The notes under the pieces: model-generated
Told to the model about the DNA's origin: nothing
Databases searched by the model: none
What the model saw: the letters and a program-made list of their open reading frames with translations, nothing else
Position numbers and translations under genes: made by a program
Shown: positions 24,384 to 39,720 of the stretch, in pieces
Layout of the letters: each line of letters starts with the position of its first letter
How positions within the stretch are numbered: the stretch's first letter is position 1
Virus record (IMG/VR): IMGVR_UViG_3300046449_000331
Location: 1 to 43,599 of that record
Length of the DNA stretch: 43,599 bases
Origin: a virus
Reading direction: 5' to 3' (one strand)

Positions 24384-24403
24384 GGGTCAGGCTCCAAAGA
24401 AGG

Positions 24404-24709
24404 TTATGGGTCGGGACGGATTACGCCGGGCATACTGGTCGCGCCGGTCGCGACCTCACGGCCCTTGTTGGTCAGGCGTGCGATGGGCTCGCCTTGATAG
24501 TCGCGGGTCGTGACCAGCTCCATTTCGTCAAGCCACGCGATTGCCGCGACTGCTTGATCGGCATTGGTCGGCACACCGATGCGCCCGCAGTGCAGACGCA
24601 TGACCGAGGCCGCGGCCTCATAGCCGGGTATCCCCGCCAGATATTGAAGCATCTTCAGGCGCCGGAATTCGGTCTCGACGGTTTCGATTGGCCAGGCTTT
24701 GAACATCAC
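24404..24709 (-). CDS. Winged-helix protein (Mu gp26-like), copy 1
   Basis: The 101-aa protein shares with the next gene the pattern RRLKMLQYL, then ADQAVAAIAWLDEMELV, a wing (IARLTNKGREVATG) and the end MPGVIRP. This is a small winged-helix fold as in the VpaChn25_0724-type phage protein family. It follows the DUF2730-like gene, the Mu gp25-gp26 order. The two copies differ enough to have distinct partners. Confidence 0.65.
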   Translation of the reverse strand: MMFKAWPIETVETEFRRLKMLQYLAGIPGYEAAASVMRLHCGRIGVPTNADQAVAAIAWLDEMELVTTRDYQGEPIARLTNKGREVATGATSMPGVIRPDP

Positions 24710-25511: not shown

Positions 25512-25517
25512 AAAGAA

Positions 25518-25736
25518 TTAGCCCAGCAGCGAGACGCGTTTGGTCGCACGGATCCGGCCAATCACGGCGATCAGACCCGCAGCGGATGTGATCAGACCTG
25601 TCACGGCCGTGCTAAGATCAGCGGCGTCGGCGGGTGTGACCGCGTAGCCTGCGATCTGGGCAAGACCGGTGATGATGGCCCCGCCGCCGCCAAGGACGCC
25701 CAGAGACAGGAAGGGTGATTTCGTTTCTTTAAACAT
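25518..25736 (-). CDS. Holin candidate
   Basis: The 72-aa protein has two hydrophobic segments (LGVLGGGGAIITGLAQIAGYAV and VTGLITSAAGLIAVIG) and a basic C-terminus (RIRATKR). Size, topology and position directly after the amidase gene are those of a small class II holin that opens the inner membrane for the endolysin. Confidence 0.7.
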   Translation of the reverse strand: MFKETKSPFLSLGVLGGGGAIITGLAQIAGYAVTPADAADLSTAVTGLITSAAGLIAVIGRIRATKRVSLLG

Positions 25737-25754
25737 GTCGAGTTCCTCAGAGTT

Positions 25755-26621: not shown

Positions 26622-26669
26622 TGTGGACCCCAATCGCGAAGCACGGGCGGCGCGCTACCTTGTGGGGTC

Positions 26670-26718
26670 TAAAATGACGTTTGATGCCTGTTCAAAACAT
26701 CCGCAAGCGCTTGCGGGG
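26670..26718 (-). promoter_or_regulatory. Candidate activator-dependent late promoter before lysis genes (Plys-like)
   Basis: The same 27-bp block as at 17115-17141 lies here at 26692-26718, with CCGCAAGCGCTTGCGG at 26701-26716. On the minus strand, 25 bases separate the palindrome from ATTTTA (26675-26670), the same spacing as in the other copy. It lies between the Mor/C-type activator gene and the endolysin gene, the place of Mu Plys. The leader to the endolysin ATG would be about 40 bases. Confidence 0.65.
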
Positions 26719-26723
26719 CGGCG

Positions 26724-27095
26724 TCAGAACAGCTTCATTTGTTTGGAAAAGGTCTCTTCCGATGTGAACTCGTCCGCAAGATACTTTCGCACAGTCACAT
26801 CGGTCATGTGCAATTTGCGTGCAATTTCTGCAACGGGCAAGCCTTTTGATTTGAGGACCTGAGCGATCCACCTTTTCGCGGTCGGAATGCGGGCCTTCAT
26901 GGCGTGCGATGCATCGGCCAATGCGCGGGCCTTTTCGATACCGACCAGCTGAGCAACCTTCGATCCACCCTTTGGATCGGTGGGCATGTAGAGCTCCGCG
27001 CCGCCAAAGGTCAGGAGGAACTCGACTGCGCCATCCGTGCCGAGAATGTCTTCGTAGACCTGGACGTTTGCAGGGGTCTTGGGGGCCTTTGTCAT
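26724..27095 (-). CDS. Mor/C-family late transcription activator
   Basis: The 123-aa protein has the Mor/C layout: an N-terminal dimerisation part (EFLLTFGGAELYMPTDPKGGS) and a C-terminal helix-turn-helix (GLPVAEIARKLHMTDVTVRKYLA). In Mu, Mor turns on C, and C binds inverted repeats to start late genes. Only one such gene is seen here, and it sits next to the palindrome before the lysis genes, so it probably does C's job. The start at 27095 gives an ATGA overlap with the preceding gene; the Met six codons further upstream is less likely. Confidence 0.8.
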   Translation of the reverse strand: MTKAPKTPANVQVYEDILGTDGAVEFLLTFGGAELYMPTDPKGGSKVAQLVGIEKARALADASHAMKARIPTAKRWIAQVLKSKGLPVAEIARKLHMTDVTVRKYLADEFTSEETFSKQMKLF

Positions 27096-27346
27096 TTGTG
27101 GCGCGCCCTCCACCGCTGACCGCGTCTTGAGACGGTGTCATTGCAGCCATAAAGAGTGGTGACTTTGCCACTCTTGCTCAAAACATAATGGACGCCGCCG
27201 CTGTTGACCGCATTCGCGCCCTGGTCGCGGCCTTCTCGCGTCACCAGCTCGATCCGGCGCTTCAGGGACTTCACGTCCACGCCGTATACCCGCTCAAGAT
27301 AACGGACCACCGCGTGATCAGTGACGATGTCAGAGCGGCGGCTCAT
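27092..27346 (-). CDS. Hypothetical protein between GemA and Mor/C genes
   Basis: The 84-aa protein begins MSRRSDIVTDHAVVRYLERVYGVDVKSLKRRI and ends in a basic patch (RRGQRWRARHK). HAVVRYLERVYG resembles short phage proteins of unknown role. It overlaps both neighbours by four bases, so translation is coupled. Confidence 0.6.
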   Translation of the reverse strand: MSRRSDIVTDHAVVRYLERVYGVDVKSLKRRIELVTREGRDQGANAVNSGGVHYVLSKSGKVTTLYGCNDTVSRRGQRWRARHK

Positions 27347-27795
27347 TTCCGTCCGCTCCAGTCAAATTCGATATCGGCGCGTTTGCCCCAGTCCTTCAAA
27401 GCCGAGATCACGGCATCGATCTGCGAATGATCCCGCAACATATCAACGTCGGCAGGCACCATTTCCCATGTTTCCCCGAAACGCGCCCGGATAAAGGCGT
27501 TCAGACCATCTCGGCCGGGCCTGTCCAGAACGCCTGCAGCTCCGAGCTTTCCCCAGAGCACATGGATCAGTCGCAGATCCGCCCGGGACGCCGCAGGGCG
27601 CTTTTTCGGGCTGGTTGAAGCCCCCTTGAACCCGTCCTTCTTGAGACGCTCGAGAACCTTTTTCAGATCGGCGGCGGTCATGTCCGACATGGATGTTTTG
27701 CCGCATACCTCAAGCTGAAGTGCGCGCCGGTCATCGCTCTCGATACCGAGTTCCCGGCAAGCGACATGGATGGTTCTCTGCAGCGCCCGGCTCAT
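27343..27795 (-). CDS. gemA: Regulatory protein GemA (Mu gp16-like, DUF1018)
   Basis: The 150-aa protein begins MSRALQRTIHVACRELGIESDDRRALQLEVCGKTSMSDMT, the conserved start of the GemA/DUF1018 family, with a C-terminal DAVISALKDWGKR. In Mu, GemA lies just before Mor and affects host gyrase genes and DNA relaxation. I chose the ATG at 27795, which overlaps the previous stop; the frame is open for 82 more codons but there mirrors the preceding gene. Confidence 0.85.
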   Translation of the reverse strand: MSRALQRTIHVACRELGIESDDRRALQLEVCGKTSMSDMTAADLKKVLERLKKDGFKGASTSPKKRPAASRADLRLIHVLWGKLGAAGVLDRPGRDGLNAFIRARFGETWEMVPADVDMLRDHSQIDAVISALKDWGKRADIEFDWSGRK

Positions 27796-28193
27796 TCTGT
27801 GGTGCCTCTTCTGGACCGGAACACAGGCTCTGACTTGGCTCGCCGGGTCTGAAACGGCGCAGCACGCACAAACGTAAGTGAGTGTGGTGATCCTTGCTCC
27901 AGTGCAAAGCGGATATGGTTTTTTGCGACCTGCATTTCCAACGGCAGCTTGCGCTTCAGACCTGCAATGATTGTCGTGTGATCGCGATTGGCCATGTACC
28001 TGCCGATCTGCGAGAGGCTCGCATCCGACATTTCGCGGCAAAGCTGATAGCAGATCGCCCTGCGGTTGACGAACTCGCTCTGACGCGATCGTGCGAGCAG
28101 CTCTTCCTCGGTCACTCCAAAATGACTGGCCACGTGAGAGCGAATGTCCTGTACCTGGACGTCTCGAGGAGGTGATGATCGCTCGTGAAACAT
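27792..28193 (-). CDS. DnaA domain-IV-like DNA-binding protein
   Basis: The 133-aa protein is a stand-alone DnaA C-terminal domain: IRSHVASHFGVTEEELLARSR, then NRRAICYQLCREMSDASLSQIGRYMANRDHTTIIAGLKR. The stretch NRDHTTII (about 69-76) matches the DnaA signature that reads DnaA boxes. There is no AAA+ domain. The start at 28193 (GAGG upstream) follows the DUF3164 stop by four bases. Transposable phages use PriA-type restart, so a DnaA-box reader here is unexpected; it may compete for or recruit host initiation factors. Confidence 0.8.
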   Translation of the reverse strand: MFHERSSPPRDVQVQDIRSHVASHFGVTEEELLARSRQSEFVNRRAICYQLCREMSDASLSQIGRYMANRDHTTIIAGLKRKLPLEMQVAKNHIRFALEQGSPHSLTFVRAAPFQTRRAKSEPVFRSRRGTTE

Positions 28194-28197
28194 CGCC

Positions 28198-28848
28198 TCA
28201 AGCCTTGGCCAAGTCGATCGTGATTGCCTGCCACGGCGCGTCGTGGCTGTCACGCTTGGAGCAGCGCACATAGGTTTTTGATCCTACGACGCGAATGGCA
28301 TCCTTGATGGCGCGCATCGCTTCCTGCCAGCGGGCATCTGTGATTTCCAAACGCAGCAGCATGAAGATCTCGGCGCGATTGATCTGACCGGCCTTGTCCG
28401 TGTTGAACGCACGGGTCACGATCGAGCGGATCTCCGGACGGCTCTCCGCAGACCATTCATTGAGGCACTCATCTACCAGCAGCTTGGCAATCTGCAGCTC
28501 AGGCCCGAAGTTGATCTGATCTGCAATCCGGACCTCAACCTTGTAGAGTTGATCCACTGTCATCAGTGTCTTGTTTCCCTTCTTGCCGCCGAAGGACGCG
28601 CCGTATTCTTGTGCAAGGATTGCCTCGAAAGCACCGATGTCATCAAAGGTATGCTCCTTAAACCGCGCCACCTGGTCAGACAGCGGAATGGCGTGGCCGA
28701 TGATTTTGCGAGTGGTTTCATCCTGAAGCAAATCACGCGCGGCGATATTCTCGATCGGCTGCAGACCGCCTTTGCCATCACGCATGAAGACATTGCCGTC
28801 GATCTCCTTGCGGCCATCGGTAAGTGCTGCCGGTTCAAACTTCGTCAT
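28198..28848 (-). CDS. DUF3164 family protein
   Basis: The 216-aa protein from the ATG at 28848 carries the DUF3164 pattern: KEIDGNVFMRDGKGGLQPIENI, then ARFKEHTFDDIGAFEAILAQEYGA, and a C-terminal IRVVGSKTYVRCSKRDSHDAPWQAITIDLA. This family is common in early regions of transposable phages; its function is unknown. The ATG overlaps the 3' end of the small gene before it. Confidence 0.8.
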   Translation of the reverse strand: MTKFEPAALTDGRKEIDGNVFMRDGKGGLQPIENIAARDLLQDETTRKIIGHAIPLSDQVARFKEHTFDDIGAFEAILAQEYGASFGGKKGNKTLMTVDQLYKVEVRIADQINFGPELQIAKLLVDECLNEWSAESRPEIRSIVTRAFNTDKAGQINRAEIFMLLRLEITDARWQEAMRAIKDAIRVVGSKTYVRCSKRDSHDAPWQAITIDLAKA

Positions 28849-29014
28849 GGAATGTCTCCTGTTTGGATTTTGCGTTGAGGGCGTCTGCGATCGTCGCAGC
28901 CACAATCTCTGGAAAAGGGAGGTTGGGATCAGCAGTGCAGATCTCGAATACGACCCCGTTCTCGGCCAGAAATTTCACTTGTCGCCCATCGGCGAAATGC
29001 GTTGGGTCGATCAT
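28835..29014 (-). CDS. Small hypothetical protein, 59 aa
   Basis: This frame is too short for usual length cut-offs. It starts MIDPTHFADGRQVKFLAENG with an ATG overlapping the upstream stop (ATGA at 29011-29014) and ends 14 bases inside the DUF3164 gene. The product is acidic and contains VVFEICTADPNLPFPEIVAATI. Full coupling on both sides argues that it is real. No family recognised. Confidence 0.6.
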   Translation of the reverse strand: MIDPTHFADGRQVKFLAENGVVFEICTADPNLPFPEIVAATIADALNAKSKQETFHDEV

Positions 29015-29235
29015 CGGATGCTCCCTTCGACTTCGACAAAGTAGGGTTGGCGTGCCGGATCGGACGGATGCCCTGGCAAAACGCCTGCTGCCACGATCAT
29101 GGCAGCCATCGCCTCGATTTCATCCATTGTGCAGAGCGTCGTTCCGCGCGGGCCCAGAAGATCCACCTTGGCAACGCCGCTGGCCGCAAGCCGGACCATC
29201 TCGACTTCTGAAAACCGTTTGACTTGATACGTCAT
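29011..29235 (-). CDS. Hypothetical early protein, 74 aa
   Basis: The product MTYQVKRFSEVEMVRLAASGVAKVDLLGPRGTTLC... has no recognised domain. It overlaps the stop of the preceding gene by four bases and its own stop overlaps the next ATG. It sits in the run of small early genes after MuB. Confidence 0.55.
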   Translation of the reverse strand: MTYQVKRFSEVEMVRLAASGVAKVDLLGPRGTTLCTMDEIEAMAAMIVAAGVLPGHPSDPARQPYFVEVEGSIR

Positions 29236-29585
29236 GCCGTCACCGTACCCAGAAGAGCTTTCTCCAGCAGCCGCTGTGCCGCTTCTGTTGGGGTGAGGCC
29301 GCGCCGGTCTGCTTCGGTCGTCAGCAGCGAATACAACCGTACCGACACCACGATCTGCCTGGTTGATGGTGACGCCTCGATCTTCTGAGACCTTTCCACA
29401 TGTTCAGATCCGCCAGCAGCCCCCTGTGAAGCTGCCTTGAACGTGGGAATAACCTCCCCGGCTTGACGCGCTTCCCTGATCCGCTGGTAGACAGTGTTGG
29501 GATGCACGCAGAGGCGCTGCGCAATGACCTTTGGCGGTACGCGTTGCAATGCCAGCGAAACGATTTCAGCCGATTGATTGGTCAT
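29232..29585 (-). CDS. HTH DNA-binding protein, 117 aa
   Basis: From the ATG at 29585 (overlapping the preceding stop) the protein begins MTNQSAEIVSLALQRVPPKVIAQRLCVHPNTVYQRIREARQAG, a homeodomain-like helix-turn-helix with recognition helix around HPNTVYQRI. A second helical part (LLTTEADRRGLTPTEAAQRLLEKAL) resembles a ribbon-helix-helix-like C-terminus. Probably an early regulator. Confidence 0.65.
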   Translation of the reverse strand: MTNQSAEIVSLALQRVPPKVIAQRLCVHPNTVYQRIREARQAGEVIPTFKAASQGAAGGSEHVERSQKIEASPSTRQIVVSVRLYSLLTTEADRRGLTPTEAAQRLLEKALLGTVTA

Positions 29586-29953
29586 GACTGCTCCTCTCCG
29601 ATGTAGCGGGGACACTTTCTGCAGGCGCGAAACATCCGCACCCGGTGTGTGTTATGGGTTTGCAAGCGATTGGCCCGCTGTCGCCACATCTGGCAGACAT
29701 CCGTCGGCAGATCGCCAAGGACCGGGCATGAAATGACGGCCGACATGAAGACGCCGCGCACCCGCTCTTCGATGGCTTCCATGTTGCCTGGATATTTCTT
29801 GCGCAGCACCGTGCTGACCAAGGAAGCTGATCTCCCGAGATCCTCGGCTACGCGGTTCTGGCTGGTAAGGGCGCAGGCCTGGGCCAAAGCGAGCACCCAG
29901 TCCGGCAGGTCATCCCCCCAGGCGTCTCTTGCGATATCGACGGGTCCGTTCAC
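29582..29953 (-). CDS. Early HTH regulator with C-terminal Cys motif, 123 aa
   Basis: I start this at a GTG (29953) with GGAGG eleven bases upstream, overlapping the previous stop; the long upstream frame is a shadow. The N-terminal half has a Cro-type helix-turn-helix (TSQNRVAEDLGRSASLVSTVLRKKYPG). The rest has cysteines in SCPVLGD, DVCQMW and ACRKCPRY, a possible metal site. The domain pair suggests a DNA-binding regulator. Confidence 0.65.
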   Translation of the reverse strand: MNGPVDIARDAWGDDLPDWVLALAQACALTSQNRVAEDLGRSASLVSTVLRKKYPGNMEAIEERVRGVFMSAVISCPVLGDLPTDVCQMWRQRANRLQTHNTHRVRMFRACRKCPRYIGEEQS

Positions 29954-30561
29954 GATTGCCCTCCCACCGGATAGGCTTTGCGCGTGTTGGGATCGAACAC
30001 CTGCTGGGTCCGCTGGATCATCGGTGGCTGTGGCCCCGTATTCCGGATCAAGCGATACACTGCCTGTTTCGCCGGGGGTTGGGCCTTGCTGACGACCTTT
30101 AAGAAGCCCGCCTTCAGCAGCTTGGTGCAATAGGCCTTCGCCGTGTTGTCCGTAACGCTCACGATGTCGGTCGTGGCATGTGCTGCGATATCACGGGGTG
30201 TGAACTGTCCGATCATGCGCATCGTCCGCCACATGTTTTCGACGCCACCGCCCTGCGAGACCGGCTTTCCGTCCCGGTTCAGGCGTGGAGCGTGATACGG
30301 AACAGGATCCGCGATAATCCGGAACTTGATCGCGGCGTCCTCGCGTATAGCGCCTTCTTCAGGCTCGATGCGCTCGACATAGTTCGCCAGCGTCAGAGAC
30401 TTGAGATAGCTGCGGATCGTGTGGCGGTTGATGTATGTCTGATCGAAGATGTCGGTGATCGTGAACAGTTCACCGTTGAACTTCACCATCTCATCCCAGA
30501 GCGGCTGACGGCCTTGTGGCTCAAGGGACGTGGCCGCTTCGGTTGCTGAAATCCTGCTCAT
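29950..30561 (-). CDS. Early protein with two winged-helix segments, 203 aa
   Basis: From the ATG at 30561, overlapping the MuB stop, the protein has a first HTH-like region (ELFTITDIFDQTYINRHTIRSYLKSLTLANYVERIE) and a second (GQFTPRDIAAHATTDIVSVTDNTAKAYCTKLLKAGFLKVV). The two tandem wHTH units resemble replication or transcription control proteins, but I recognise no named family. It lies just after MuB, where Mu has small accessory early genes. Confidence 0.6.
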   Translation of the reverse strand: MSRISATEAATSLEPQGRQPLWDEMVKFNGELFTITDIFDQTYINRHTIRSYLKSLTLANYVERIEPEEGAIREDAAIKFRIIADPVPYHAPRLNRDGKPVSQGGGVENMWRTMRMIGQFTPRDIAAHATTDIVSVTDNTAKAYCTKLLKAGFLKVVSKAQPPAKQAVYRLIRNTGPQPPMIQRTQQVFDPNTRKAYPVGGQS

Positions 30562-31301
30562 TTTGGAGCCCTCCGCGGCGTGGGTGCTTCGCCAGTGAAG
30601 AAGGGACGATTGTCCCAATCCTTCCGGCCGACGGACTTGAGGTTCCGGGTCTGGGCGAATTCCTTGACCCGCTCGAGGTTGATAGAAATGCGCCGGATTG
30701 ACCGATGTGATTCCTCCAACACCTGAAGCTTCAGATCCTCTTCCAACGACACACCAGGGCAGTAGATCGCCGCGAGATAGCCGACATCATCGATCTGGCC
30801 TTCTTCAGCAGCGACCCAGTCAAGAATGCGACCGTGCACCCGTTCCCAAGCCATCAGCTTGCGCGGCAGCTTCTCTTCACCGATCAAGATGATCGTGGCA
30901 CCGGAGCTTTCGTGAATGTCGCGCACGATCTCGATCATGTTCCGATCGACCAAGTGATCGATTTCATCGATCAGCAGCGGCCGGCTGTTGCGGGCGAGCT
31001 CCTGGGCGATCTGGTCGACCATGTCCGAGATTGTCTTGGCGGGCAGTACGCCCATGTCGCGCAGGATCTCGGTGCAGAGCTTCTTCTTGGTCCAGACCGA
31101 TTTGACTTCGACCTGATACGCCCGAAACTTGTTCGCCGCATATACTGCCGCTGTCGTTTTGCCGTATCCGGACCATCCGTAGAATACGCCCAGCCCTGGA
31201 AGACCCGGACCACGCTGATTGACCCGCTCGATCAGTTCCACCAAAGCCACGACATTGCGCAGCGGTGCAACAGAGTTGTTATGCCTGAATTCTTCTGTCA
31301 T
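30558..31301 (-). CDS. MuB-like AAA+ ATPase, transposition target activator
   Basis: The 247-aa protein has Walker A GWSGYGKTT (about 42-50), Walker B LLIDEID (about 109-115) and a sensor region IILIGEEKL. MuB binds target DNA, gives target immunity and stimulates MuA. It follows the transposase gene with a 59-base gap, as in Mu. The N-terminal HTH of Mu B is reduced here to a short region (EFRHNNSVAPLRNV), which is common in siphovirus-type relatives. Confidence 0.9.
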   Translation of the reverse strand: MTEEFRHNNSVAPLRNVVALVELIERVNQRGPGLPGLGVFYGWSGYGKTTAAVYAANKFRAYQVEVKSVWTKKKLCTEILRDMGVLPAKTISDMVDQIAQELARNSRPLLIDEIDHLVDRNMIEIVRDIHESSGATIILIGEEKLPRKLMAWERVHGRILDWVAAEEGQIDDVGYLAAIYCPGVSLEEDLKLQVLEESHRSIRRISINLERVKEFAQTRNLKSVGRKDWDNRPFFTGEAPTPRRAPK

Positions 31302-31360
31302 TCTATCCTCACTTCGTTATCGCCCCCGGTCAGCCTGCAACGTTGCCGGGGGCACCTAAA

Positions 31361-33502
31361 TCAGCCGAACATTGCCCAGCTGAAATCCTCAAAAATCTTC
31401 ATGTGCCCGATGTACTCAGGCTGACGCTGATAGGCCGCGAGAGCTTTCTGCTCTTCGGGCAAGACGCGCTCGCCAGCCTTGATGCGCTGCTCCAGGACGA
31501 GGAAACGCCGGAACCTTTCCTTGGGCGTCTCCGGCTTGATCACCACCTCGGCCGTGCGCTCATGCTCGGCGCGCATCGTTGCCAAACGGTCATCGGAAAC
31601 ACGGCTCTTGGAGGCTTCCTTAGGTGCCAAAACCGATGCGTCTCTGGCAGCTTCCAACGCCGGTGTGGTGTAGACTTCGCGCGCCCTTGGGAAGGCGACC
31701 ATCACGCCAGCCTTTTCGGCGGCATCACGGCGCATCGCATCTGCGACATCACGCTTGCCGATCTTGCGACTCGCGCGGCGAATATCCGTAAGCTTTTCGT
31801 CCTCAAAAGCCCGCTGCATTGCCTTGGCCTTGGCGATGACTTCCGCAGGGTTCAGACCCGCAAGATCAGCATTCAAGGCCTCGCCGAGATAGGCCTCCGT
31901 TTCCGGATCAAAGAGCATGACCCGCCCCATATCTGCGGGATCCATCCGAACGAGAACTTCATCCCCTGGCATCGCGGACATGGGCAGGTAATAGGCACCA
32001 TCGACCCGCACGCCTTGCTTGGTTACCGTCCGCATGCCGCCGTTGGACGCGATCGGCGCGAGCAGCACATCCAGCGCGGCCTCATGCTCAATCTTGCGGA
32101 TCGGGCCTGCATAGGCCGCTGCAACCTCGAAGGGGGTTCGCTTCTTGAGTGCAGAATGCTGATCCCGCCCGTACATGTCTTGGGCCCAGATGTCGCTCCA
32201 CTCCTGAAACTCGGCGAAATCCATATCAACGTCATAGAGCGCCTCATCCGTGGCACCGAGGCGCTTGTCGAATGCCTTGCGCTGCTCGATGATCTTGCGA
32301 TCAGCGACCGAGTGGCCAATGAAACCAGGGCAGACCGCGATATCGCGCTGGTAGGTTCCAATCGTGCGCTCGACGATCCCCTTGTCAGTAGGCTCATAAG
32401 CGATGCTGAGCTCCACCTCGATTTCCAAGGCTGCAAACAGGCGCTTCGTCTGCTTTGCGACGAAATCCGATCCATTGTCGGTGTGGATTTTCTCGGGCAC
32501 ACCCCAAGCCATAATGCACTTGCGGACCAACAGGCCAACGGCAGAGGCGCGCGGCGTCTTACTCACAAGCACGATGGCGCGCCGGGAGTAGACATCGACG
32601 GCCATGTAGATCGAGTGCCGTCCGCCCTTGAGCATGACATCTGCAGGCGACGCATCCACCTGCCAGACCTCGTTCAGGCGCTGCGCACGCTGGCTTCCAG
32701 TCGCGGCGAAGCGGACATGGGAACGGTATCCATCCGGGTTGGTCAGGCGCATGAGCTCGTTGCGATACTCGGTCTTCCAGCGCGTGATGACGGTCTGGAA
32801 CATGCGGATGGTGGGCAGCGGCGCTGTCTTGATTTCACCGGTCTTGGCGCAGGTGACGTCCAGCGTCTTGCCGAATTTGTCCTTCACCAGGATCCGCAGA
32901 TGCTTGGCGGAAAGGAACGGCTGCTTGGCGATTGCGGCCAGCATCATCGCGCGAACCTGCCCATCATGCGCCACGTCCAGAACGCCGGATCCCTTTGGAC
33001 GGCCCCTGCGGGATGTTGCGGTACCTTCGTTCGCCGCCTTGCGCCATCTGGCAATGGACCGCGCTGACACACTTGGAACAGCCGCTTTAATCCACGCTGG
33101 AAGGTCGATTGAACCGCCCGTAAACATCTCTGCGAACATCGCATCCGCAGCCGTTTGAGGAAGGGCGTTGTCCGCCTGAAACTTGTGAACGAGGGTCAGT
33201 ATCAGCGCGCGGGCGTCAGCTGACTGATCTACAGCGGTATCCGCAACGACAGGTCGAAGATCCCGAGCGCCCAAGGTGAGATGGCTGGCCAGCCAGGCAG
33301 CGCGGGCGGGTGCTGGCAGGGCATCAACATGATACTCGAGCCCGCCGCCGCCTTCGCGACCTTCGCGCACCCGCGCCAGTCCGGTTTCAGCCCAGCGTTC
33401 GCGGGCGGCAAGCGCATTCACGCGCCGCTTGGACGTCGGCAGACCGGGCATAAGCCCCGCCGCCGCTGCATCCGCAATCTGCTGTGCCGAAACCCAAAGC
33501 AT
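31361..33502 (-). CDS. MuA-like DDE transposase
   Basis: The 713-aa recombinase has N-terminal HTH regions (LWVSAQQIADAAAAGLMPGLPTSKRRVNALAARERW), further DNA-binding helices and an RNase H-fold core. The DDE triad is Asp283 in WQVDASPAD, Asp342 in HTDNGSDF and Glu378 in VERTIGTYQRD. A C-terminal part corresponds to the MuA region that contacts MuB. I chose the ATG at 33502 (GGAG six bases upstream, overlapping the ParB stop as TGATG) over a GTG twelve bases earlier. It pairs and joins the ends at 863 and 39715. Confidence 0.93.
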   Translation of the reverse strand: MLWVSAQQIADAAAAGLMPGLPTSKRRVNALAARERWAETGLARVREGREGGGGLEYHVDALPAPARAAWLASHLTLGARDLRPVVADTAVDQSADARALILTLVHKFQADNALPQTAADAMFAEMFTGGSIDLPAWIKAAVPSVSARSIARWRKAANEGTATSRRGRPKGSGVLDVAHDGQVRAMMLAAIAKQPFLSAKHLRILVKDKFGKTLDVTCAKTGEIKTAPLPTIRMFQTVITRWKTEYRNELMRLTNPDGYRSHVRFAATGSQRAQRLNEVWQVDASPADVMLKGGRHSIYMAVDVYSRRAIVLVSKTPRASAVGLLVRKCIMAWGVPEKIHTDNGSDFVAKQTKRLFAALEIEVELSIAYEPTDKGIVERTIGTYQRDIAVCPGFIGHSVADRKIIEQRKAFDKRLGATDEALYDVDMDFAEFQEWSDIWAQDMYGRDQHSALKKRTPFEVAAAYAGPIRKIEHEAALDVLLAPIASNGGMRTVTKQGVRVDGAYYLPMSAMPGDEVLVRMDPADMGRVMLFDPETEAYLGEALNADLAGLNPAEVIAKAKAMQRAFEDEKLTDIRRASRKIGKRDVADAMRRDAAEKAGVMVAFPRAREVYTTPALEAARDASVLAPKEASKSRVSDDRLATMRAEHERTAEVVIKPETPKERFRRFLVLEQRIKAGERVLPEEQKALAAYQRQPEYIGHMKIFEDFSWAMFG

Positions 33503-34386
33503 CAGAGGCTCCACCCCTGTGCGCGCGCATGCTCGAGGATCTCGCGCTTGTGCTCATCGATGAACGCACGACGGCTTTTGGTGGACAGGCGTGACCAGGT
33601 GGCCGTGACACGGTGATAGTGCTTATCGTCATTGCGAGGCAGTGCGCGGCCTTCGGCCAGCAAAAGGGCATCGGCGACACTGGTGGCTTGGGGCGGATCG
33701 GACAGCAGAGCCTCGCAGGCACGCTCCTGCACTTCCGCGGCGACCTTGGCCAGAGCCTGCAATCCCGCCTGATGGTCGGCAATCCACGTATCGCGGATAC
33801 GGTCTTTGGTGCTCGGGAATAGGCCGTTGGAGATCTCAATGGCATTGTAAAATGACGCCCGTCCCAGCCCAACCTTTGCGCCAACTTCAGACCAAAGTCC
33901 AAGAATTGGACTTTGATTTTCGTTTGCGTTTTCAGTCTCTTTTACGAGACGGACGTTCGCGCTGCGCCGGTCACCACCGTGACGCGCTGCCGGGTTCATG
34001 TCTTCCCATGTGGCTTTCAGCGCCGCCAGATGTTCGGCCCGCTCCAGCTTCGTCAGCTCTTCGCGGTTGATGTTCTCCATGATCTCGGCAAAGCGCAGAT
34101 CCGCTGCGGGCGTGTCTTCCGGCAAGACGGTGACCGGCACCTCAGCCCAACGCAGTGCGCGAACCGCTTCCAGACGCTGCAGCCCAGCGATCAACCGGTA
34201 CTTCTGGCCCTTGCGCACCACGAGCAAGGGATGGGTCAGACCGTTGCAGTCAATATCCTGCTTCAGCGCCTCAATCCGATGGGCACGCGCAGGGCGCAAC
34301 CGCCCTTCGACTTCGATCAACGCAACAGTAACGCTGCGCAGATCATGGGTTTGGCTTGAGACAGGGGGCGTCGGAGTATCAGTCAT
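33502..34386 (-). CDS. ParB/Spo0J-like DNA-binding protein
   Basis: The 294-aa protein has a ParB N-terminal nuclease-like domain: RPARAHRIEALKQDIDCNGLTHPLLVVRKGQKYRLIAGLQRLEAVRALRWAEVPV, with the R-Q-LE box, followed by ENINREELTKLERAEHLAALK. A helix-turn-helix-like part (GLWSEVGAKVGLGRASFYNAIEI) follows. It is encoded immediately upstream of the transposase, where Mu has no ParB. Similar genes occur in RcapMu-type phages. It may organise phage DNA or act with the transposase; there is no ParA beside it. Confidence 0.85.
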   Translation of the reverse strand: MTDTPTPPVSSQTHDLRSVTVALIEVEGRLRPARAHRIEALKQDIDCNGLTHPLLVVRKGQKYRLIAGLQRLEAVRALRWAEVPVTVLPEDTPAADLRFAEIMENINREELTKLERAEHLAALKATWEDMNPAARHGGDRRSANVRLVKETENANENQSPILGLWSEVGAKVGLGRASFYNAIEISNGLFPSTKDRIRDTWIADHQAGLQALAKVAAEVQERACEALLSDPPQATSVADALLLAEGRALPRNDDKHYHRVTATWSRLSTKSRRAFIDEHKREILEHARAQGWSL

Positions 34387-34652
34387 ACGTCATCCGTGAA
34401 ATCTAGGGTTTGGTCGTTCTCTGGGGCGTCATCCGGCGGGGTGAGCATCGTGTAGAAAAAGATGAACTTGCCGTTGATGTGCTGGCGTTCGCAGACGATC
34501 TCGGCACCAAGCTGGCGCAGCTCGGCCACGCAGCTGTTGATCGCGCAGACATGGGCCCGGCGCATGATCTCACGGGTGGAGTGCGGCTTGCGATCGGACA
34601 GCAGCTTGTTCACCCGGCGCAGTCGATCAGAGGACATCGTGGCGGCGTGCAT
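34383..34652 (-). CDS. Small winged-helix early protein
   Basis: The 89-aa product contains RLRRVNKLLSDRKPHSTREIMRRAHVCAINSCVAELRQLGAEIVCERQHINGKFIFFYTM, a compact winged helix with a beta wing. It is probably a phage regulator or excisionase-like helper. The ATG and stop overlap its neighbours. Confidence 0.6.
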   Translation of the reverse strand: MHAATMSSDRLRRVNKLLSDRKPHSTREIMRRAHVCAINSCVAELRQLGAEIVCERQHINGKFIFFYTMLTPPDDAPENDQTLDFTDDV

Positions 34653-34888
34653 CAGCTAGGCACCCCATCATAGGTCGCAGCCAATAGCGCTTCGATATCG
34701 CGCAGCGCATCCTCTTGCTGAACCAACTCTGAAAACGCCGCCATGGCGAGATTGGCCTGATCATCCCACTTATTGACCAGCCCCACCTCTTGGCCGAGCG
34801 TGTCATCATCCATGGCATCGTTCAGCGATACCATCTGGGTCAGCGCGTCCTTGAGCGCCGCAAAGGATTGGACGGGAGACCAGCTCAT
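34652..34888 (-). CDS. Hypothetical early protein, 78 aa
   Basis: Acidic helical product (MSWSPVQSFAALKDALTQMVSLNDAMDDD...) with no recognised domain. Overlapping starts and stops on both sides and the run of early genes support expression. Confidence 0.55.
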   Translation of the reverse strand: MSWSPVQSFAALKDALTQMVSLNDAMDDDTLGQEVGLVNKWDDQANLAMAAFSELVQQEDALRDIEALLAATYDGVPS

Positions 34889-35031
34889 GTCAGACCTCCC
34901 CAGGCAAGAAAGTATCCCGCCACACAGATGACGACGAACGCGACGCCTGCGATGGCATCTTCGACGATCGTCGAGGGCAGTTGGTACCGTGGACGGGCAC
35001 TCTTCACTGGCTTCTCTTCGGTCATAGGCAT
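34885..35031 (-). CDS. Small single-helix membrane protein, 48 aa
   Basis: Starting at ATG 35031 (GAGGAG upstream) gives MPMTEEKPVKSARPRYQLPS followed by one membrane helix (IAGVAFVVICVAGYFLAWGGL). The frame is open further upstream but there shadows the previous gene. It may act in exclusion or membrane control during early infection; this is a guess from topology alone. Confidence 0.5.
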   Translation of the reverse strand: MPMTEEKPVKSARPRYQLPSTIVEDAIAGVAFVVICVAGYFLAWGGLT

Positions 35032-35252
35032 TTGCGCATCTCCTCGTTGAAGAACTGAACTCGGGTCAGATCTTGGGCCACGGTGCATGCGGTCCGCTCA
35101 AGGCGAACCAGATGGAAGGTCGACGCCGGGTCTGACGCGCCGATAGTGATTTCGATGGCCAATGCGAGCCGCTGAGCCTCGGTCAGCTGACCAAGCGCTG
35201 CGCGGGCGACTTCGACCCGGTCCAGCAAAATTGGCGGATGATCACGCATCAT
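35022..35252 (-). CDS. Hypothetical early protein, 76 aa
   Basis: The product (MMRDHPPILLDRVEVARAALGQLTEAQRLALAIEITIGASDP...) is helical and unrecognised. Its ATG overlaps the Ner-like stop. Second gene of the early operon. Confidence 0.5.
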   Translation of the reverse strand: MMRDHPPILLDRVEVARAALGQLTEAQRLALAIEITIGASDPASTFHLVRLERTACTVAQDLTRVQFFNEEMRKCL

Positions 35253-35491
35253 GCGGCGTCCTTCTTTTTACGGGGGCGGGGAATGTCAGCAGGCCATTCA
35301 AGGTCTGCTGGCCAGTTTTCGCTGAACCAAACCATCGCCCTTTGGGCGGTCTGGATCGTGCAGCCCTTACCGCCACGCAGCCTCTCAAAGAGAGTGGCGT
35401 TACCGGCTGCTTTATTTGACAAAGTTGCTTCCGACCTCCCGATGTGGGTGGCCATGGTCTCCGCCAGTTCTGTGAGTTGCTCGCTAATCAT
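35249..35491 (-). CDS. Cro/Ner-like early regulator
   Basis: From the ATG at 35491 the 80-aa protein reads MISEQLTELAETMATHIGRSEATLSNKAAGNATLFERLRGGKG, a helix-turn-helix in the place of Mu ner, the first early gene opposite the repressor. The 16 codons upstream in frame are operator DNA rather than protein. The -10 of the early promoter ends seven bases before this ATG, so the mRNA may be leaderless. It probably damps repressor and early transcription. Confidence 0.65.
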   Translation of the reverse strand: MISEQLTELAETMATHIGRSEATLSNKAAGNATLFERLRGGKGCTIQTAQRAMVWFSENWPADLEWPADIPRPRKKKDAA

Positions 35492-35526
35492 GATCGCTAA
35501 AGTAATTATTTGCACTGTTAAGTCAA
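35491..35526 (-). promoter_or_regulatory. Early promoter with embedded operator
   Basis: On the minus strand TTGACT (35526-35521) and TACTTT (35504-35499) are 16 bases apart. A TGCACTG box (35511-35517 on the plus strand) lies in the spacer. Binding there would block RNA polymerase. A predicted promoter, not proven. Confidence 0.55.
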
Positions 35527-35619
35527 TCATAATTTGCACTGATTTGGAAATAGTGCGTTTCCAACCGCGCTCTTGTGCGAGAGCAGTGTTTTAGTGTAAT
35601 TCTGCACTGTTTTGGAAAC
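35511..35619 (+). promoter_or_regulatory. Operator cluster between repressor and early operon
   Basis: TGCACTG occurs three times: at 35511-35517, 35535-35541 and 35603-35609. The last two extend to nearly identical 17-mers (35535-35551 and 35603-35619, TGCACTG then A/T then TTTGGAAA). An inverted TTGGAAA...TTTCCAA lies at 35544-35562. A plus-strand promoter, TTGTGC (35573) to TGTAAT (35595), would start transcription about where the repressor begins. The layout fits repressor and Ner binding. Confidence 0.6.
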
Positions 35620-36364
35620 GCATGAGATATACGAGCTTATTGAAGCACGCCGAAAGGAACTAAACCTTTCGCAGTCTCAGCTTGGCATGCTCGCGCTTGG
35701 GCAGGACAACAGTTCGGTTATCCAAGCAATAAAGCGCGGCTCTTCACCATCGGCTCACAAGCTTGAAGCCATCTGCAACGCCTTAGGCTTGGAATTCTAC
35801 GTAGGTAGAAAGCGAAGTGAAGGCGAACCACAATTTACCAGCAACCATGAGAGGGTAGAGGTGCTTCAAGATTTCGCATTTGTTGAACGTTTCGATGTCA
35901 GTCTTTCAGCTGGACCTGGTGCAAGCGGGGAAAACGCCAAGAAGCTTGCTCCTGTGGCTTTCAGGCGCGACTGGATGTTAGAGAAGGGACTGGTTGCCGA
36001 AAAATGCGTTGTTTGCAGCGTGCGCGGCAACAGCATGGAGCCTATGCTATTTGATGGGGATCTAGTGCTGCTAGACAGACGGCAGACGGACGTCCGAGAT
36101 GGGCAGATTTATGGCGTCGTTGATATCGAAGGCGATACCAGAATCAAAAGGATTGAGATGATCGACAACGGGCTCTTGCTGAGATCAGAAAACCCCGAAT
36201 GCCGCACTGAACTGAGGCACGGAGATGACGCCAACCGCGTGCAGATAATCGGTTCTTTGGCTTGGTCCGGCCATAGCTATGATACATCTCGTCAAGCCCC
36301 CAGTCGTCAGACTCCCAGCCGTCAGACTCCCCGAAGACGCACAATGAAACATGATTGGATTTGA
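35612..36364 (+). CDS. Phage repressor, HTH plus LexA-like (S24) autocleavage domain
   Basis: The 250-aa protein has an N-terminal HTH (about 9-55, LNLSQSQLGMLALGQDNSSVIQAIKRG) and a C-terminal S24 peptidase domain with Ser141 (RGNSMEPML) and Lys179 (DTRIKRIE). An Ala-Gly near residue 100 is the likely cleavage site. This differs from Mu c and suggests RecA/SOS-triggered induction. The only start in frame is TTG at 35612, because a stop lies 12 bases before it, and no ribosome site is seen: leaderless translation is likely. The TTG is inside an operator copy. The C-terminal tail has tandem SRQ(A/T)P repeats made by a 15-bp DNA repeat near 36296-36335. Confidence 0.88.
   Translation: METHEIYELIEARRKELNLSQSQLGMLALGQDNSSVIQAIKRGSSPSAHKLEAICNALGLEFYVGRKRSEGEPQFTSNHERVEVLQDFAFVERFDVSLSAGPGASGENAKKLAPVAFRRDWMLEKGLVAEKCVVCSVRGNSMEPMLFDGDLVLLDRRQTDVRDGQIYGVVDIEGDTRIKRIEMIDNGLLLRSENPECRTELRHGDDANRVQIIGSLAWSGHSYDTSRQAPSRQTPSRQTPRRRTMKHDWI
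36296..36335 (+). repeat. 15-bp tandem repeat in repressor C-terminus
   Basis: Nearly three copies of a unit like CAGTCGTCAGACTCC encode SRQAP SRQTP SRQTP. Slippage-prone repeats of this kind can vary in copy number. The repeat lies after the S24 domain, so it should not affect cleavage. Confidence 0.65.
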
Positions 36365-36369
36365 ACACG

Positions 36370-36888
36370 ATGGCAAACTGTATCCAGTGCGGAAAATCAC
36401 TAACTGTCTGGAACAAGGTTAGCGAAGACAAATGCTATTCTTGTGTGAGCGGCAACGAAAAGGCTGCGCGGGAAAAAGCCGCTGAAAAGACGAAGCAAGG
36501 TAGTGAGGCGGAGGCTGCTCTGCGCAAAGCCCGAGATGCCTCGATCGAAGCGATCATGGTCACGACCGAAACCCACCCAAGCATCGGGATTTCTCAGCGC
36601 CTCGGCATTGTGACGGCAGAATGCGCTTATGGGATGAATGTCTTCAAAGACGTTTTTGCAGGCATTCGAAATATCGTTGGAGGTCGTTCAAAGGCCGTTC
36701 AACAGACGATGAGGGACGCGCGCGAGACCGTGCTCTATGAGCTGAAGCAAGAAGCGTCCCTGCTTGGAGCAGATGCGGTCGTGGCCGTCGACCTGGACTA
36801 TGTGCAGATCGGCGACGGTGGTTGGAGCATGGTCATGCTGGTTGCATCGGGAACGGCCGTTAAGGTCGAGAAACCAGCAGCCGCCTAA
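36370..36888 (+). CDS. Zinc-ribbon plus YbjQ (UPF0145) domain protein
   Basis: Starting at ATG 36370, six bases after the repressor stop, the 172-aa protein has an N-terminal zinc ribbon (Cys4, Cys7, Cys22, Cys25), a Lys/Glu/Ala-rich helix and a YbjQ-like domain (VTAECAYGMNVFKDVFAGIRNIVGGRSKAVQQTMRDARETVLYELKQEASLLGADAVVAVDLDY). YbjQ proteins form homopentamers of unknown role. An earlier TTG (36355) overlaps the repressor and is less likely. It is on the same strand as the repressor, so it should be expressed in the lysogen. Confidence 0.78.
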   Translation: MANCIQCGKSLTVWNKVSEDKCYSCVSGNEKAAREKAAEKTKQGSEAEAALRKARDASIEAIMVTTETHPSIGISQRLGIVTAECAYGMNVFKDVFAGIRNIVGGRSKAVQQTMRDARETVLYELKQEASLLGADAVVAVDLDYVQIGDGGWSMVMLVASGTAVKVEKPAAA

Positions 36889-37118
36889 GTCTTGCCTTCA
36901 GCCCGACGCATCCTGCGGATCGCCCGCATCATGATCCTACGACGCTCGGCCATATCATCGGCCAGAATGCGTTTTCTGCGCTCAATGCGTTTTTCCATAA
37001 CAGCAAGCCGTTGTTCTTCAACGTAATTTGTAAATCGCTGCCATTTTGCGTGCAGTTTTTGCCGCTGTACATTGTCGTCTAACATCTCTGAAAACCCATA
37101 TAATGCTGGGTTATGCAT
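36885..37118 (-). CDS. Small basic coiled-coil protein
   Basis: The 77-aa product is rich in Arg, Lys and Glu (KWQRFTNYVEEQRLAVMEKRIERRKRILADDMAERRRIMMRAIRRM) and probably forms one long helix. It is convergent with the YbjQ gene (4-base overlap at the ends) and divergent from the ATPase gene. A shorter start at the Met near 37085 is possible. No family recognised. It may be a regulator or partner of the ATPase. Confidence 0.5.
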   Translation of the reverse strand: MHNPALYGFSEMLDDNVQRQKLHAKWQRFTNYVEEQRLAVMEKRIERRKRILADDMAERRRIMMRAIRRMRRAEGKT

Positions 37119-37141
37119 ACATCAGTTGGCGCTGCACAGCT

Positions 37142-37194
37142 AGAATTATGCAGGATCGTAGCAGCACAATGTCTGGCGAACACACCATAATTCT
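37142..37194. promoter_or_regulatory. Inverted repeat between small gene and ATPase gene
   Basis: AGAATTATG (37142-37150) and its exact complement CATAATTCT (37186-37194) lie in the 112-bp divergent spacer, 35 bases apart. They may be a binding site controlling one or both genes. No clear -35/-10 pair could be fixed. Confidence 0.4.
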
Positions 37195-37230
37195 GCAAAG
37201 CTCCAGCCGAGTCACCTAAGGTTTTAAACG

Positions 37231-39327
37231 ATGGCACGAGTTACACAAAATTTCGAGAACAGAGTCCGAAAACTTCCAAAGCCATCGAATGCTGGCCAGG
37301 CTTTGCAACCCCTGTTCGAAGCAATTAGCAACGCTGTGTTTGCAATCGACGACTTGAAAGAAACCCTCCCGGTGGCCGCACAGAAGAAGGGGCTCGTTAG
37401 AGTTGAGGTTAGAAACCTAAGCGATAGCGAAAAACTTAAGATTGACGTTATCGACGACGGCATCGGGCTAGATGCCAATCGGTACAAAGCATTCAAAGAA
37501 TTAGATACAGAATTCAAACGCAGCAAGGGTGGGAAAGGCGTTGGCAGGTTGTTCTGGCTGGATGCGTTTAGCAAAATTAACGTTGTGAGTGCTTATAAGG
37601 GGGCGACAATGTTAGATCAGCGCTCATTTGACTTTGTTCTTTCCAACGATGACCAAATTATCGAGCACGCTTCACCTGAAGCAAAGCTGTCATCCATTGG
37701 AACAAATGTTCGGTTTTCTGGCCTTCGCAGTGGACACTACGCAAAGCATTTTCCGAAAAGAAAAGACACGTTTCTGAACTACTTTAGTGCTCATTTTATA
37801 GCCGATTTCCTCGGAGGGTCAGGGCCTCGAATATTGGTGAACCTAGATGGCGATTTCACAGAGTATCCTCAAGCCGTCTCAGACTTAGTTGTGGGTGATC
37901 CGATAGCCTTTCAAACAAATGAACACGAACAATTTGGCGTTCTTTCGATCCAAGGCTTCTTCTGCAAAGAAATGGCAAGCAAGGGACTGGACGGGATGCA
38001 TCAGCTGCACCTGTTGGCCAATAAAAGGACGGTTTCCAGCCGTGAGATTGATAAGCTTCTCGGATTGCTTCGTGTATCCAAGGATGGCCAAGATGATCTT
38101 GTTTTTCACGGTTGTGTATCAGGCGACTTCCTAGATGATCATGTGAACGAAGGTCGCACCGCGTTCGTTTTAGAAGAGAAGACTTTGAAGGAAGTCTCCC
38201 GGTTCTGCGCTGACAGCATCAAGGCAAATGCGCTACCAGAACAAATTGAGGTCTATGAACAAGCACGCCTGCACGATTATCGAGAGTTCGTTGCGGCATA
38301 TCCGATCTACGACTTTGCTGAAGAGGCAGAACAACTGAAGCGGGTTCCTTTTGGAGCGAGAACACCTGAGGAATTCGCCGCGGGCCTAGTTAAGCACCAA
38401 ATTCGTGGAGAAGAGACACGTAGGATCCAGATCGACACCATCATTGACCAGCTGGACGGAGAAAAGAACGTACCGGAGAATTTTGGTCAGACGGTCGTCG
38501 AAGTAGCAAAGGATTTGAAAGCTTCTGAGCAGCGAGCGCTTGCCCACCATGTAGTTAAGCGCAAACTTGTGCTTGAGGTCATGGAGCGTCTAATTTTGAA
38601 GGTTCGTGATCGCGGCGAAGAGAAACGGGATTTTCATCTCGAGGAAACACTTCATACGTTTATTTGCCCGATGCGAATCACTGGACGCGAACCGACCGAA
38701 ATTGAGCCGTCGCCACATGATCTATGGATTGTGGATGAAAGGCTGGCCTTCACTCGCTCCTTTTCGTCGGATGTCAGACTTCAGAAGCTATTGAAAGATA
38801 ATCCGAGCGAACTGAGGCCCGATCTTGTGGTCTGGGATCAGGCACATGGTCTAAGTGTTTTGGATCCTAGGGAGGAAGACGGCGATATAGATTTGTCAGA
38901 GCCGCTCCGGAAGGTCATGGTTGTGGAATTTAAGCGGCCAGGTCGACGCTCATACCCTAAGGTGGAAGACGACATCGAACGTCAGATCACGAAATACTTG
39001 CGGCACCTCAAGGGCGGGGAGGTGTTCTCTTATGATCAACGCAAAGTCCGCTTTTCCGATGACTGTCAGTTCTTTTGCTATGTCGTCGCTGATATCGAGG
39101 GGGATCTGAAGGACCAATTGATTACTTGGAACCCTACGGCGAATGGCGAGGGGCGCTTCCGAGCTCTAGATGGCGCTTTTAAGGGCTCTTCAATCGAAGT
39201 GATCCAGTGGACCGATTTGATCAACGATGCTTGGAGCAGAAATATGGCGACGCTAAGTGCAGCGGGGCTGAGACGAGGAAGACCAACTGTGAGTAATACG
39301 ACAAGTAGCCCTGATGGTTCTACATAG
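37231..39327 (+). CDS. GHKL ATPase with C-terminal PD-(D/E)XK-like nuclease (candidate defence protein)
   Basis: The 698-aa protein begins with a GHKL ATPase domain: N-box EAISN (Glu30, Asn34), G1 DDGIGLD (75-81) and G2 GGKGVGR (100-106), as in MutL/Hsp90/MORC proteins. A middle S5-like region and helices follow. The C-terminal ~230 residues fit a PD-(D/E)XK nuclease: EETLH (471-475), RPDLVVWD with Asp531, VVEFKRP with Glu566 and Lys568, and a later Gln (QITKY). Such MORC-like ATPase-nuclease fusions are known near restriction systems. The gene is visibly more A+T-rich than the late genes, which suggests separate acquisition. ATG 37231 has TAAGG upstream. Confidence 0.75.
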   Translation: MARVTQNFENRVRKLPKPSNAGQALQPLFEAISNAVFAIDDLKETLPVAAQKKGLVRVEVRNLSDSEKLKIDVIDDGIGLDANRYKAFKELDTEFKRSKGGKGVGRLFWLDAFSKINVVSAYKGATMLDQRSFDFVLSNDDQIIEHASPEAKLSSIGTNVRFSGLRSGHYAKHFPKRKDTFLNYFSAHFIADFLGGSGPRILVNLDGDFTEYPQAVSDLVVGDPIAFQTNEHEQFGVLSIQGFFCKEMASKGLDGMHQLHLLANKRTVSSREIDKLLGLLRVSKDGQDDLVFHGCVSGDFLDDHVNEGRTAFVLEEKTLKEVSRFCADSIKANALPEQIEVYEQARLHDYREFVAAYPIYDFAEEAEQLKRVPFGARTPEEFAAGLVKHQIRGEETRRIQIDTIIDQLDGEKNVPENFGQTVVEVAKDLKASEQRALAHHVVKRKLVLEVMERLILKVRDRGEEKRDFHLEETLHTFICPMRITGREPTEIEPSPHDLWIVDERLAFTRSFSSDVRLQKLLKDNPSELRPDLVVWDQAHGLSVLDPREEDGDIDLSEPLRKVMVVEFKRPGRRSYPKVEDDIERQITKYLRHLKGGEVFSYDQRKVRFSDDCQFFCYVVADIEGDLKDQLITWNPTANGEGRFRALDGAFKGSSIEVIQWTDLINDAWSRNMATLSAAGLRRGRPTVSNTTSSPDGST

Positions 39328-39375
39328 GAAATCCGCTCATCTTAACCGCTGGCAGCATTCGTTTGTGTTGACCAA

Positions 39376-39493
39376 AAACGTCCCACCTTTGTTCGAGCTG
39401 TCCGAACAGTGATCGCTGTTGAAGCGATGTTTAACAGGGGTTTGAACAAGGTGGGACGTTTCCAAGCGACACGACCACTGCCGTCCCACCTTG
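39376..39493 (+). ncRNA. Putative structured element with mutually exclusive hairpins
   Basis: Arm 1 (39376-39394) and arm 2 (39444-39461) can pair over 18 bases with one bulged T. Between them are hairpins CTGT-CCGA-ACAG (39398-39409) and ATCGCT-GTTGA-AGCGAT (39412-39428). Arm 3, CGTCCCACCTTG (39482-39493), repeats the core of arm 1 and is fully complementary to 39447-39458 of arm 2, giving a competing 12-bp hairpin with a 23-base loop. It follows the ATPase gene by about 50 bases. It may be a 3'-UTR switch, a small RNA or protein-binding DNA; the function is unknown. Confidence 0.45.
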
Positions 39494-39557
39494 CGACACC
39501 GAATCTCTTATTTTTATGGACTTCATTTTCTGGCCATCGGCATCTTCGCTTTAGGTG

Positions 39558-39576
39558 CGAAGCTTATTTGGCAGCG
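39558..39576 (+). repeat. Subterminal 19-bp repeat, left-end copy
   Basis: CGAAGCTTATTTGGCAGCG matches 893-911 except for one base and has the same orientation. It lies 109 bases inside the terminal repeat of this end, while the other copy directly adjoins its terminal repeat. Unequal spacing at the two ends is also a feature of Mu. Confidence 0.65.
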
Positions 39577-39685
39577 TGGCAATCACATGTTTTGAGATGA
39601 GCCTGCGCCAATCGCCTTATTTTTAAGGCAGCAAAGTCATTCGGCATCTTCCGGGCACATCTTTGGTCTTCCGGATTAAAAGCCC

Positions 39686-39715
39686 TGTTTCTGCCAGCAT
39701 TTCCTTCGCTCTACA
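39686..39715 (-). repeat. Terminal inverted repeat, phage left end
   Basis: Read inward on the minus strand this end starts TGTAGAGCGAAGGAAATG, paired with 863-892 (26/30 identical). The plus strand ends ...CTCTACA, so the last phage bases are CA at 39714-39715. Confidence 0.9.
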
Positions 39716-39720
39716 GATAG
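39716..39720. repeat. 5-bp target-site duplication, right copy (GATAG)
   Basis: GATAG follows the terminal CA directly and matches 858-862. Removing the prophage and one copy restores CCGGAGATAGGCATTGG as the target. Confidence 0.9.

Follow-up and report, generated by a model that had tools for sequence, protein, structure and literature searches.

A paraMORC3-type GHKL ATPase–nuclease, probably an anti-phage gene, carried as exchangeable cargo near the left end of a Mu-like prophage

The paraMORC3 proteins combine a GHKL domain and an S5 domain with a C-terminal domain of restriction-endonuclease fold that bears an E-D-ExK motif (Iyer, Abhiman and Aravind, 2008; PMC2292703). Their distribution is wide but sporadic, they are laterally mobile, and in proteobacteria they often occur as standalone genes (PMC2292703). 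VcSduA, encoded on VSP-II in the WASA lineage of V. cholerae, is a single-gene anti-phage nuclease (Adams et al., 2025; PMC12137116). VcSduA alone protects E. coli and V. cholerae against several phages, and the substitutions E27A and K557A each abolish its activity (PMC12137116). Infected hosts survive at all multiplicities of infection (MOIs) tested, and the cleavage of phage DNA by VcSduA was inferred from this cell survival (PMC12137116). The authors of that study link VcSduA to paraMORC3, place it in Shedu type I-D and report a DUF4263 domain in it (PMC12137116).

The window analyzed here is the whole stretch of 43,599 nucleotides of the virus record IMGVR_UViG_3300046449_000331. It includes a gene for a 698-residue protein, in which a GHKL ATPase domain is followed by a MutL/GyrB-like transducer, a helical linker and a C-terminal nuclease core of the form E-D-ExK-Q (Table 1). 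Judged from its sequence and structural model, this protein is of the paraMORC3 type and agrees with that family in every testable feature; the gene itself is not new, as it belongs to an already known family. The first-pass annotation of this DNA had proposed a prophage-borne fusion of a GHKL ATPase and a PD-(D/E)XK-like nuclease as a candidate defense gene, and had stated that a single-gene defense of this domain order could not be named. The latter statement does not hold, because paraMORC3 (PMC2292703) and VcSduA (PMC12137116) have both been described.

Table 1. Features of the prophage, its left-end region and the ATPase–nuclease gene (positions in the window; aa, amino acids).
Feature	Position	Strand	Basis
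Complete Mu-like prophage, 38,853 bp; left (repressor) end 39715, right end 863	863..39715		Inverted termini; MuA, MuB, portal, terminase
5-bp target duplication GATAG, right-end side	858..862		Repeat flanking terminus
5-bp target duplication GATAG, left-end side	39716..39720		Repeat flanking terminus
MuA-type transposase	31361..33514	-	Pfam rve, Mu-transpos_C
CI/S24 repressor	35612..36364	+	
YbjQ/phrog_15412 gene, core neighbor of repressor	36355..36888	+	47% identical to RS1 gene
77-aa ORF, inner border of slot	36885..37118	-	Occurs in relatives without the ATPase
Exchangeable cargo slot, holding little beyond the ATPase–nuclease gene	37143..39369		Flanks 88–93% identical to L136; segment replaced there
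paraMORC3-type GHKL ATPase–nuclease gene, 698 aa	37231..39327	+	Intact ORF and relatives
GHKL (Bergerat-fold) ATPase domain, residues 1–195, boundary approximate	37231..37815	+	Pfam HATPase_c; Hsp90/GyrB/MutL fold matches
N-box E30...N34; E30 = predicted ATP-hydrolysis Glu (E27 in VcSduA)	37318..37332	+	Invariant 47/47
G1 box D75-x-G77-x-G79	37453..37467	+	Invariant 47/47
G2 box G100..G103-x-G105-R106	37528..37548	+	Invariant 47/47
Transducer (S5-like) domain, residues 196–335	37816..38235	+	Model against two-domain MutL LN40 and GyrB43 fragments
Long helical linker, residues 336–461	38236..38613	+	AlphaFold2 secondary structure
C-terminal nuclease domain, residues 462–682	38614..39276	+	Invariant residues; weak PD-(D/E)xK fold matches; HHalign
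ExK core E566-F-K568; K568 = counterpart of VcSduA K557	38926..38934	+	Invariant 47/47

The reading frame begins with an ATG that agrees with the N-termini of relatives and contains no internal stop codon. Residues 28–105 match Pfam HATPase_c with an E-value (1e-4) slightly short of the curated cut-off. Conservation was assessed in an alignment of 47 relatives with 20–58% identity. The N-box, G1 and G2 motifs that had been read in this single frame are invariant in all 47, as are E471, H475, D531, E566, K568 and Q585, which comprise the predicted ExK core together with its upstream Asp (D531) and Glu (E471). Such invariance at this level of divergence indicates that the ATPase and nuclease motifs are not there by chance. 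Of the basic residues in the transducer, R266 is kept in 46 relatives and R309 in 47. Promoters in alphaproteobacteria often depart from the sigma-70 consensus, and a search upstream of the gene for a sigma-70-like promoter, a consensus that may not fit an alphaproteobacterial host, found none. A decayed passenger gene that no longer functions might give this result, but the frame is open over the full length of the family and every invariant residue is intact, so that decay is scarcely credible.

The AlphaFold2 model of the protein, which is based on the alignment of 47 relatives, has a mean pLDDT of 86.5. In a Foldseek comparison with PDB, its N-terminal two-domain module aligns with Hsp90, GyrB, topoisomerase and MutL, including MutL structures 1nhh and 1b63 (TM-score 0.58–0.59 by target length) and, in particular, MutL LN40 in 1nhh (E = 5e-10, TM-score 0.59 by target length). 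As the model matches the MutL, GyrB and Hsp90 modules, the protein has a GHKL domain and an S5-like transducer in its predicted fold. The C-terminal domain modeled alone has a pLDDT of 80.8, and its leading Foldseek matches are the PD-(D/E)xK nucleases McrC, Can2 and FokI, all of them weak (best E = 0.025). No Shedu structure appears among the best 50 PDB fold matches of this domain. HHalign aligns it with the Shedu nuclease profile, placing the ExK motifs in register, at a probability of 89.5%; the highest value among 20 column-shuffled profiles was about 2%. In single-sequence comparisons of the C-terminal nuclease region, scores are weak and Shedu proteins are enriched at the top, ranking first. 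Rather than lacking a nuclease fold, an outcome named beforehand as fatal to the proposal, the C-terminal region thus carries an E-D-ExK-Q core, and nuclease folds are its best, though weak, matches. The proposed ATPase–nuclease fusion is borne out by motifs and fold matches, those to nucleases being weak.

Each domain hallmark of paraMORC3 was found in the protein. The ATP-binding motifs of the N-terminal GHKL domain are intact by Pfam, by the N, G1 and G2 residues in 47 of 47 relatives and by fold; the S5/transducer domain that follows aligns with MutL LN40 and GyrB43 and contains R266 and R309; and the C-terminal restriction-endonuclease fold with E-D-ExK is supported by matches that are weak but on top. 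MORC proper was rejected on its S5 motif, GhXhhpXXRhl. The corresponding stretch here is QLHLLANKRTV (residues 258–268), and the leading Gly is missing both from it and from the family consensus HQLHLxAxxRTV, as would be predicted for paraMORC. The name Shedu was not adopted either. In Pfam, the SduA_C/DUF4263 model (PF14082) gives no match at E ≤ 0.1 to any of 12 members and falls outside the 25 commonest of the 46 families matched by the 47 members at E ≤ 1, while the Shedu protein that neighbors a family member in L005, used as a positive control, matches it at 1.3e-25. Because the PF14082 model does not recognize it and the profile comparison is suggestive, not firm, the protein is filed as paraMORC3, not Shedu. 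PADLOC models gave no match to the protein, NCBIfam gave nothing specific, and sequence searches of PDB gave weak histidine-kinase matches at best, or none. Histidine kinase was rejected, because the searches showed no dimerization domain of the kinase type and because the C-terminal half resembles a nuclease. Tiamat was dropped as a name, as nothing found in the analysis tied the gene to it.

The carrier has MuA and MuB, inverted termini and a 5-bp target duplication, all characteristic of Mu-like phages, which confirms that the gene is prophage-borne. The termini at 863 and 39715 read TGTAGCGCGAAGAAAATG and TGTAGAGCGAAGGAAATG, with the consensus TGTAG[C/A]GCGAAG[A/G]AAATG. Carrier MuA is 43% identical to that of Rhodovulum phage RS1 and Rhodobacter phage RC1, the relatives with named hosts. 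The ATPase–nuclease gene ends 388 bp from the left terminus and lies, as had been noted, in the lysogeny region on the strand of the S24 repressor. Between it and that terminus, positions 39380–39492 hold three copies of GTCCCACCTT in either orientation, about 220–340 bp inside the terminus, which are possible transposase or repressor sites. The YbjQ-domain protein has a Cys-rich N-terminal stretch. Its gene, which overlaps the repressor gene at that gene's end and has conserved counterparts in RS1 and RC1, is possibly a lysogeny gene.

Comparison with other Mu-like phages indicates that the gene is exchangeable. The closest, L136 (IMGVR_UViG_3300030372_005208), has a MuA 99% identical to that of the carrier, is 93% identical at the DNA level over 14 kb, and has in common with it the 346 bp at the terminus, at 88% identity, and the inner 77-aa gene, whose DNA is 93% identical; the repressor of L136 is 59% identical. 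In L136, a DUF5131 gene and a TcmP-like gene occupy the slot (382–2192) instead of the ATPase–nuclease, and this pair matches a PADLOC candidate system (PDC-M41B, 2.8e-59; PDC-M41A, 4e-7). In L137 (IMGVR_UViG_2844187691_000001; MuA 89% identical), a P63C-domain gene of 342 aa stands at the corresponding place (1–1029). RS1 has the order terminus (a similar sequence, TGTAGCGCGA), YbjQ homolog (47% identity) and repressor (33%); the YbjQ homolog is the last gene before the end, with no ATPase gene between it and the terminus. The annotation of RC1 gives the same order, likewise without the ATPase gene. In addition, GC content along the gene is 0.48–0.50, compared with about 0.59 in the rest of the phage, in agreement with the deviant base composition noted earlier. 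Replacement in L136 and L137, absence from RS1 and RC1, and low GC content together identify the gene as exchangeable cargo. The sole close neighbor of this otherwise solitary gene, the 77-aa ORF on the opposite strand, was rejected as an antitoxin or partner; since it also occurs in L136 and L137, which lack the ATPase, it is not an obvious partner.

A phage function, in which the protein would assist in transposition of the Mu type, in replication or in taking over the host, by DNA looping or processing of host DNA, agrees with a phage-encoded gene that lies near the left end and the transposition genes. Such a function is very unlikely, given that the gene is missing from the interval that separates the YbjQ gene from the end in RS1 and RC1 and is replaced in L136, that it has a low GC content and the strand of the repressor, and that it is most closely related to genes of chromosomes and plasmids rather than to phage core genes. 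Whether the stretch from the repressor-proximal genes to the left terminus is a dedicated exchangeable slot for anti-phage systems in the alphaproteobacterial Mu-like lineage is a matter on which the evidence leaves us evenly divided. This reading draws on the present gene, the pair in L136, the P63C-domain gene in L137 and a paraMORC3 gene that a remote Mu-like phage, L120, would have acquired on its own. In a Mu-like contig with a more distant MuA (30%), L153, hsdR and hsdS genes lie just past the S24 repressor (112–4657); these were left out of the phage cargo, as the end of the phage was not located there.

Other family members were found in bacteria, plasmids and phages. Of 565 pattern matches in genome_contigs, 478 were relatives, and most of the best 80 came from alphaproteobacteria. 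In viral_contigs, an alignment query found 28 relatives and a single-sequence query none. Relatives also occur in 54 plasmid records, 29 of them conjugative. In 10 of the 14 plasmid neighborhoods, genes named as defense or restriction genes lie no more than 10 kb away; this count is a strong impression rather than a statistical result. Within this distance are TIR and ABC-three-component genes (L003), Abi and SAVED (L004), patatin and Mov34 (L007), HEPN, RES and AbiEii (L009), Abi and a restriction endonuclease (L011), HsdRM (L012), a full CBASS-type set (L013), SIR2, XamI R-M (restriction–modification) and SAVED (L014), and an N-6 methylase (L015); in L005, type I R-M genes and Shedu lie directly upstream of the paraMORC3 gene. 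No housekeeping-like setting was seen among the 14 annotated plasmid neighborhoods. The finding of homologs mainly as housekeeping genes, the second outcome named as fatal, was likewise not borne out, the members being found on conjugative plasmids, prophages and islands and beside defense genes. These neighbors, the cargo slot and the likeness to VcSduA support the proposal of a candidate defense gene.

Three individual members may be described further. On Vibrio fluvialis plasmid pIDH5335-1 (L005:1797–12004), the genes for HsdR, an AAA ATPase, HsdM, HsdS, Shedu and paraMORC3 are consecutive and in the same orientation, and the Shedu frame shares a few bases with the paraMORC3 frame; the genes of this run may act together. 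Phage vB_RanS_PJN03 encodes a full-length member with the key ATPase and ExK residues (L006:2485–4509, UXN81045.1), whose annotation as N-acetylmuramoyl-L-alanine amidase looks wrong from the sequence. A member with 35% identity is present on several Agrobacterium plasmid records; in A. tumefaciens Ach5 pTi, its gene is located downstream of repABC (L003:10001–12103).

Anti-competitor functions are common on conjugative plasmids, which account for the 29 records mentioned above, and some relatives adjoin type I R-M genes (L005, L012). Both observations would suit an ATPase–nuclease whose main targets are plasmids or other mobile DNA, or one that serves a host R-M system encoded elsewhere, as Iyer et al. 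suggested for standalone paraMORC3 (PMC2292703). VcSduA, however, is effective alone against phages in E. coli (PMC12137116), and we regard this explanation as highly improbable.

Remote paraMORC3-type members are present in two further Mu-like contigs. In L120 (7208–10109), the gene lies at the contig end directly behind the S24 repressor, which follows MuA (phrog_310) and MuB (phrog_296), and in L116 (8004–10019) it lies mid-genome. A maximum-likelihood tree places the three Mu-phage copies separately, the position of L120, on a long branch, being unsure, and groups the copy studied here with chromosomal and plasmid copies (a starred fork with L016, L017 and L001). These separate places in a sequence-based tree point to independent acquisition of paraMORC3 by Mu-like phages.

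The paraMORC3-type gene studied here, cargo of a Mu-like prophage, probably encodes an anti-phage nuclease that would protect the lysogen by ATP-gated restriction of DNA. The protein would dimerize via its GHKL–transducer module in the manner of MutL, and the binding of ATP would close the resulting clamp on DNA. ATP turnover, together with a feature of incoming phage DNA, would then permit cutting of that DNA by the C-terminal PD-(D/E)xK domain, so that superinfecting phages would be restricted while the lysogen survives, and the prophage would gain because its host survives. Closure of a dimer and use of both active sites are suggested by the fold and the conserved residues. The mechanism most likely to apply is modeled on MutL, GyrB and the VcSduA mutants, and by this analogy we infer that the present copy would be active, expressed and dimeric and would cut phage DNA directly. 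The residues proposed by the first-pass annotation for mutation, Glu30 and Lys568, were well chosen, being by motif and spacing the equivalents of E27 and K557.

The chief rival to such direct restriction is abortive infection, in which sensing of a phage would cause the ATPase to unleash an unspecific nuclease on host DNA or RNA, leading to cell death or arrest. Many ATPase–nuclease defense systems, such as WonAB, use this mode, and a standalone enzyme that lacks a modification partner has no obvious mark of self and non-self. By contrast, hosts protected by VcSduA, an apparent relative, survive at every multiplicity tested (PMC12137116), which makes abortive infection unlikely here. Direct restriction remains our preferred reading. 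The finding places a GHKL–nuclease family with one apparent tested member, VcSduA, on an intact-looking transposable prophage, and provides a divergent paraMORC3 protein for studying how the family recognizes phage DNA. What is added to the known family is the prophage context, namely a precise swappable slot that holds a different candidate defense system in a sister phage. If the slot is indeed dedicated to anti-phage systems, Mu-like phages, which can transpose to nearly any site, would scatter defense genes across host chromosomes. Comparing Mu-like prophages at their left ends, from the repressor genes to the terminus, offers a source of candidate defense systems to test.

Among known systems, no difference from paraMORC3 was found, the present member being carried by a Mu-like prophage. 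VcSduA is likewise a single gene in which GHKL precedes the nuclease, and in both proteins a catalytic Glu stands at about residues 27–30 and a Lys 530–538 residues later; the E27–K557 spacing of VcSduA, 530, is the median of the 47-member set, and the L116 member has Glu and Lys at exactly these two positions. VcSduA differs in that it lies on a genomic island, not a prophage, and in that its authors report DUF4263, whereas Pfam finds none in this family set; it is an apparent relative by architecture and residue spacing. Shedu (SduA) resembles the protein in the layout of the nuclease core, with D...ExK...Q and a C-terminal hydrophobic-strand motif, but classical Shedu is without a GHKL domain. 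McrC, the nuclease subunit of McrBC, is the PDB structure that comes closest in fold to the C-terminal domain (6hz4, E = 0.025), but its partner is the AAA+ GTPase McrB, not a GHKL ATPase. MutL shares the GHKL–transducer module, whereas the protein described here has a PD-(D/E)xK-type ExK core in its C-terminal domain and is patchy cargo rather than a housekeeping protein. The proposed left-end slot of Mu-like phages would resemble the variable loci found in P2/P4 elements.
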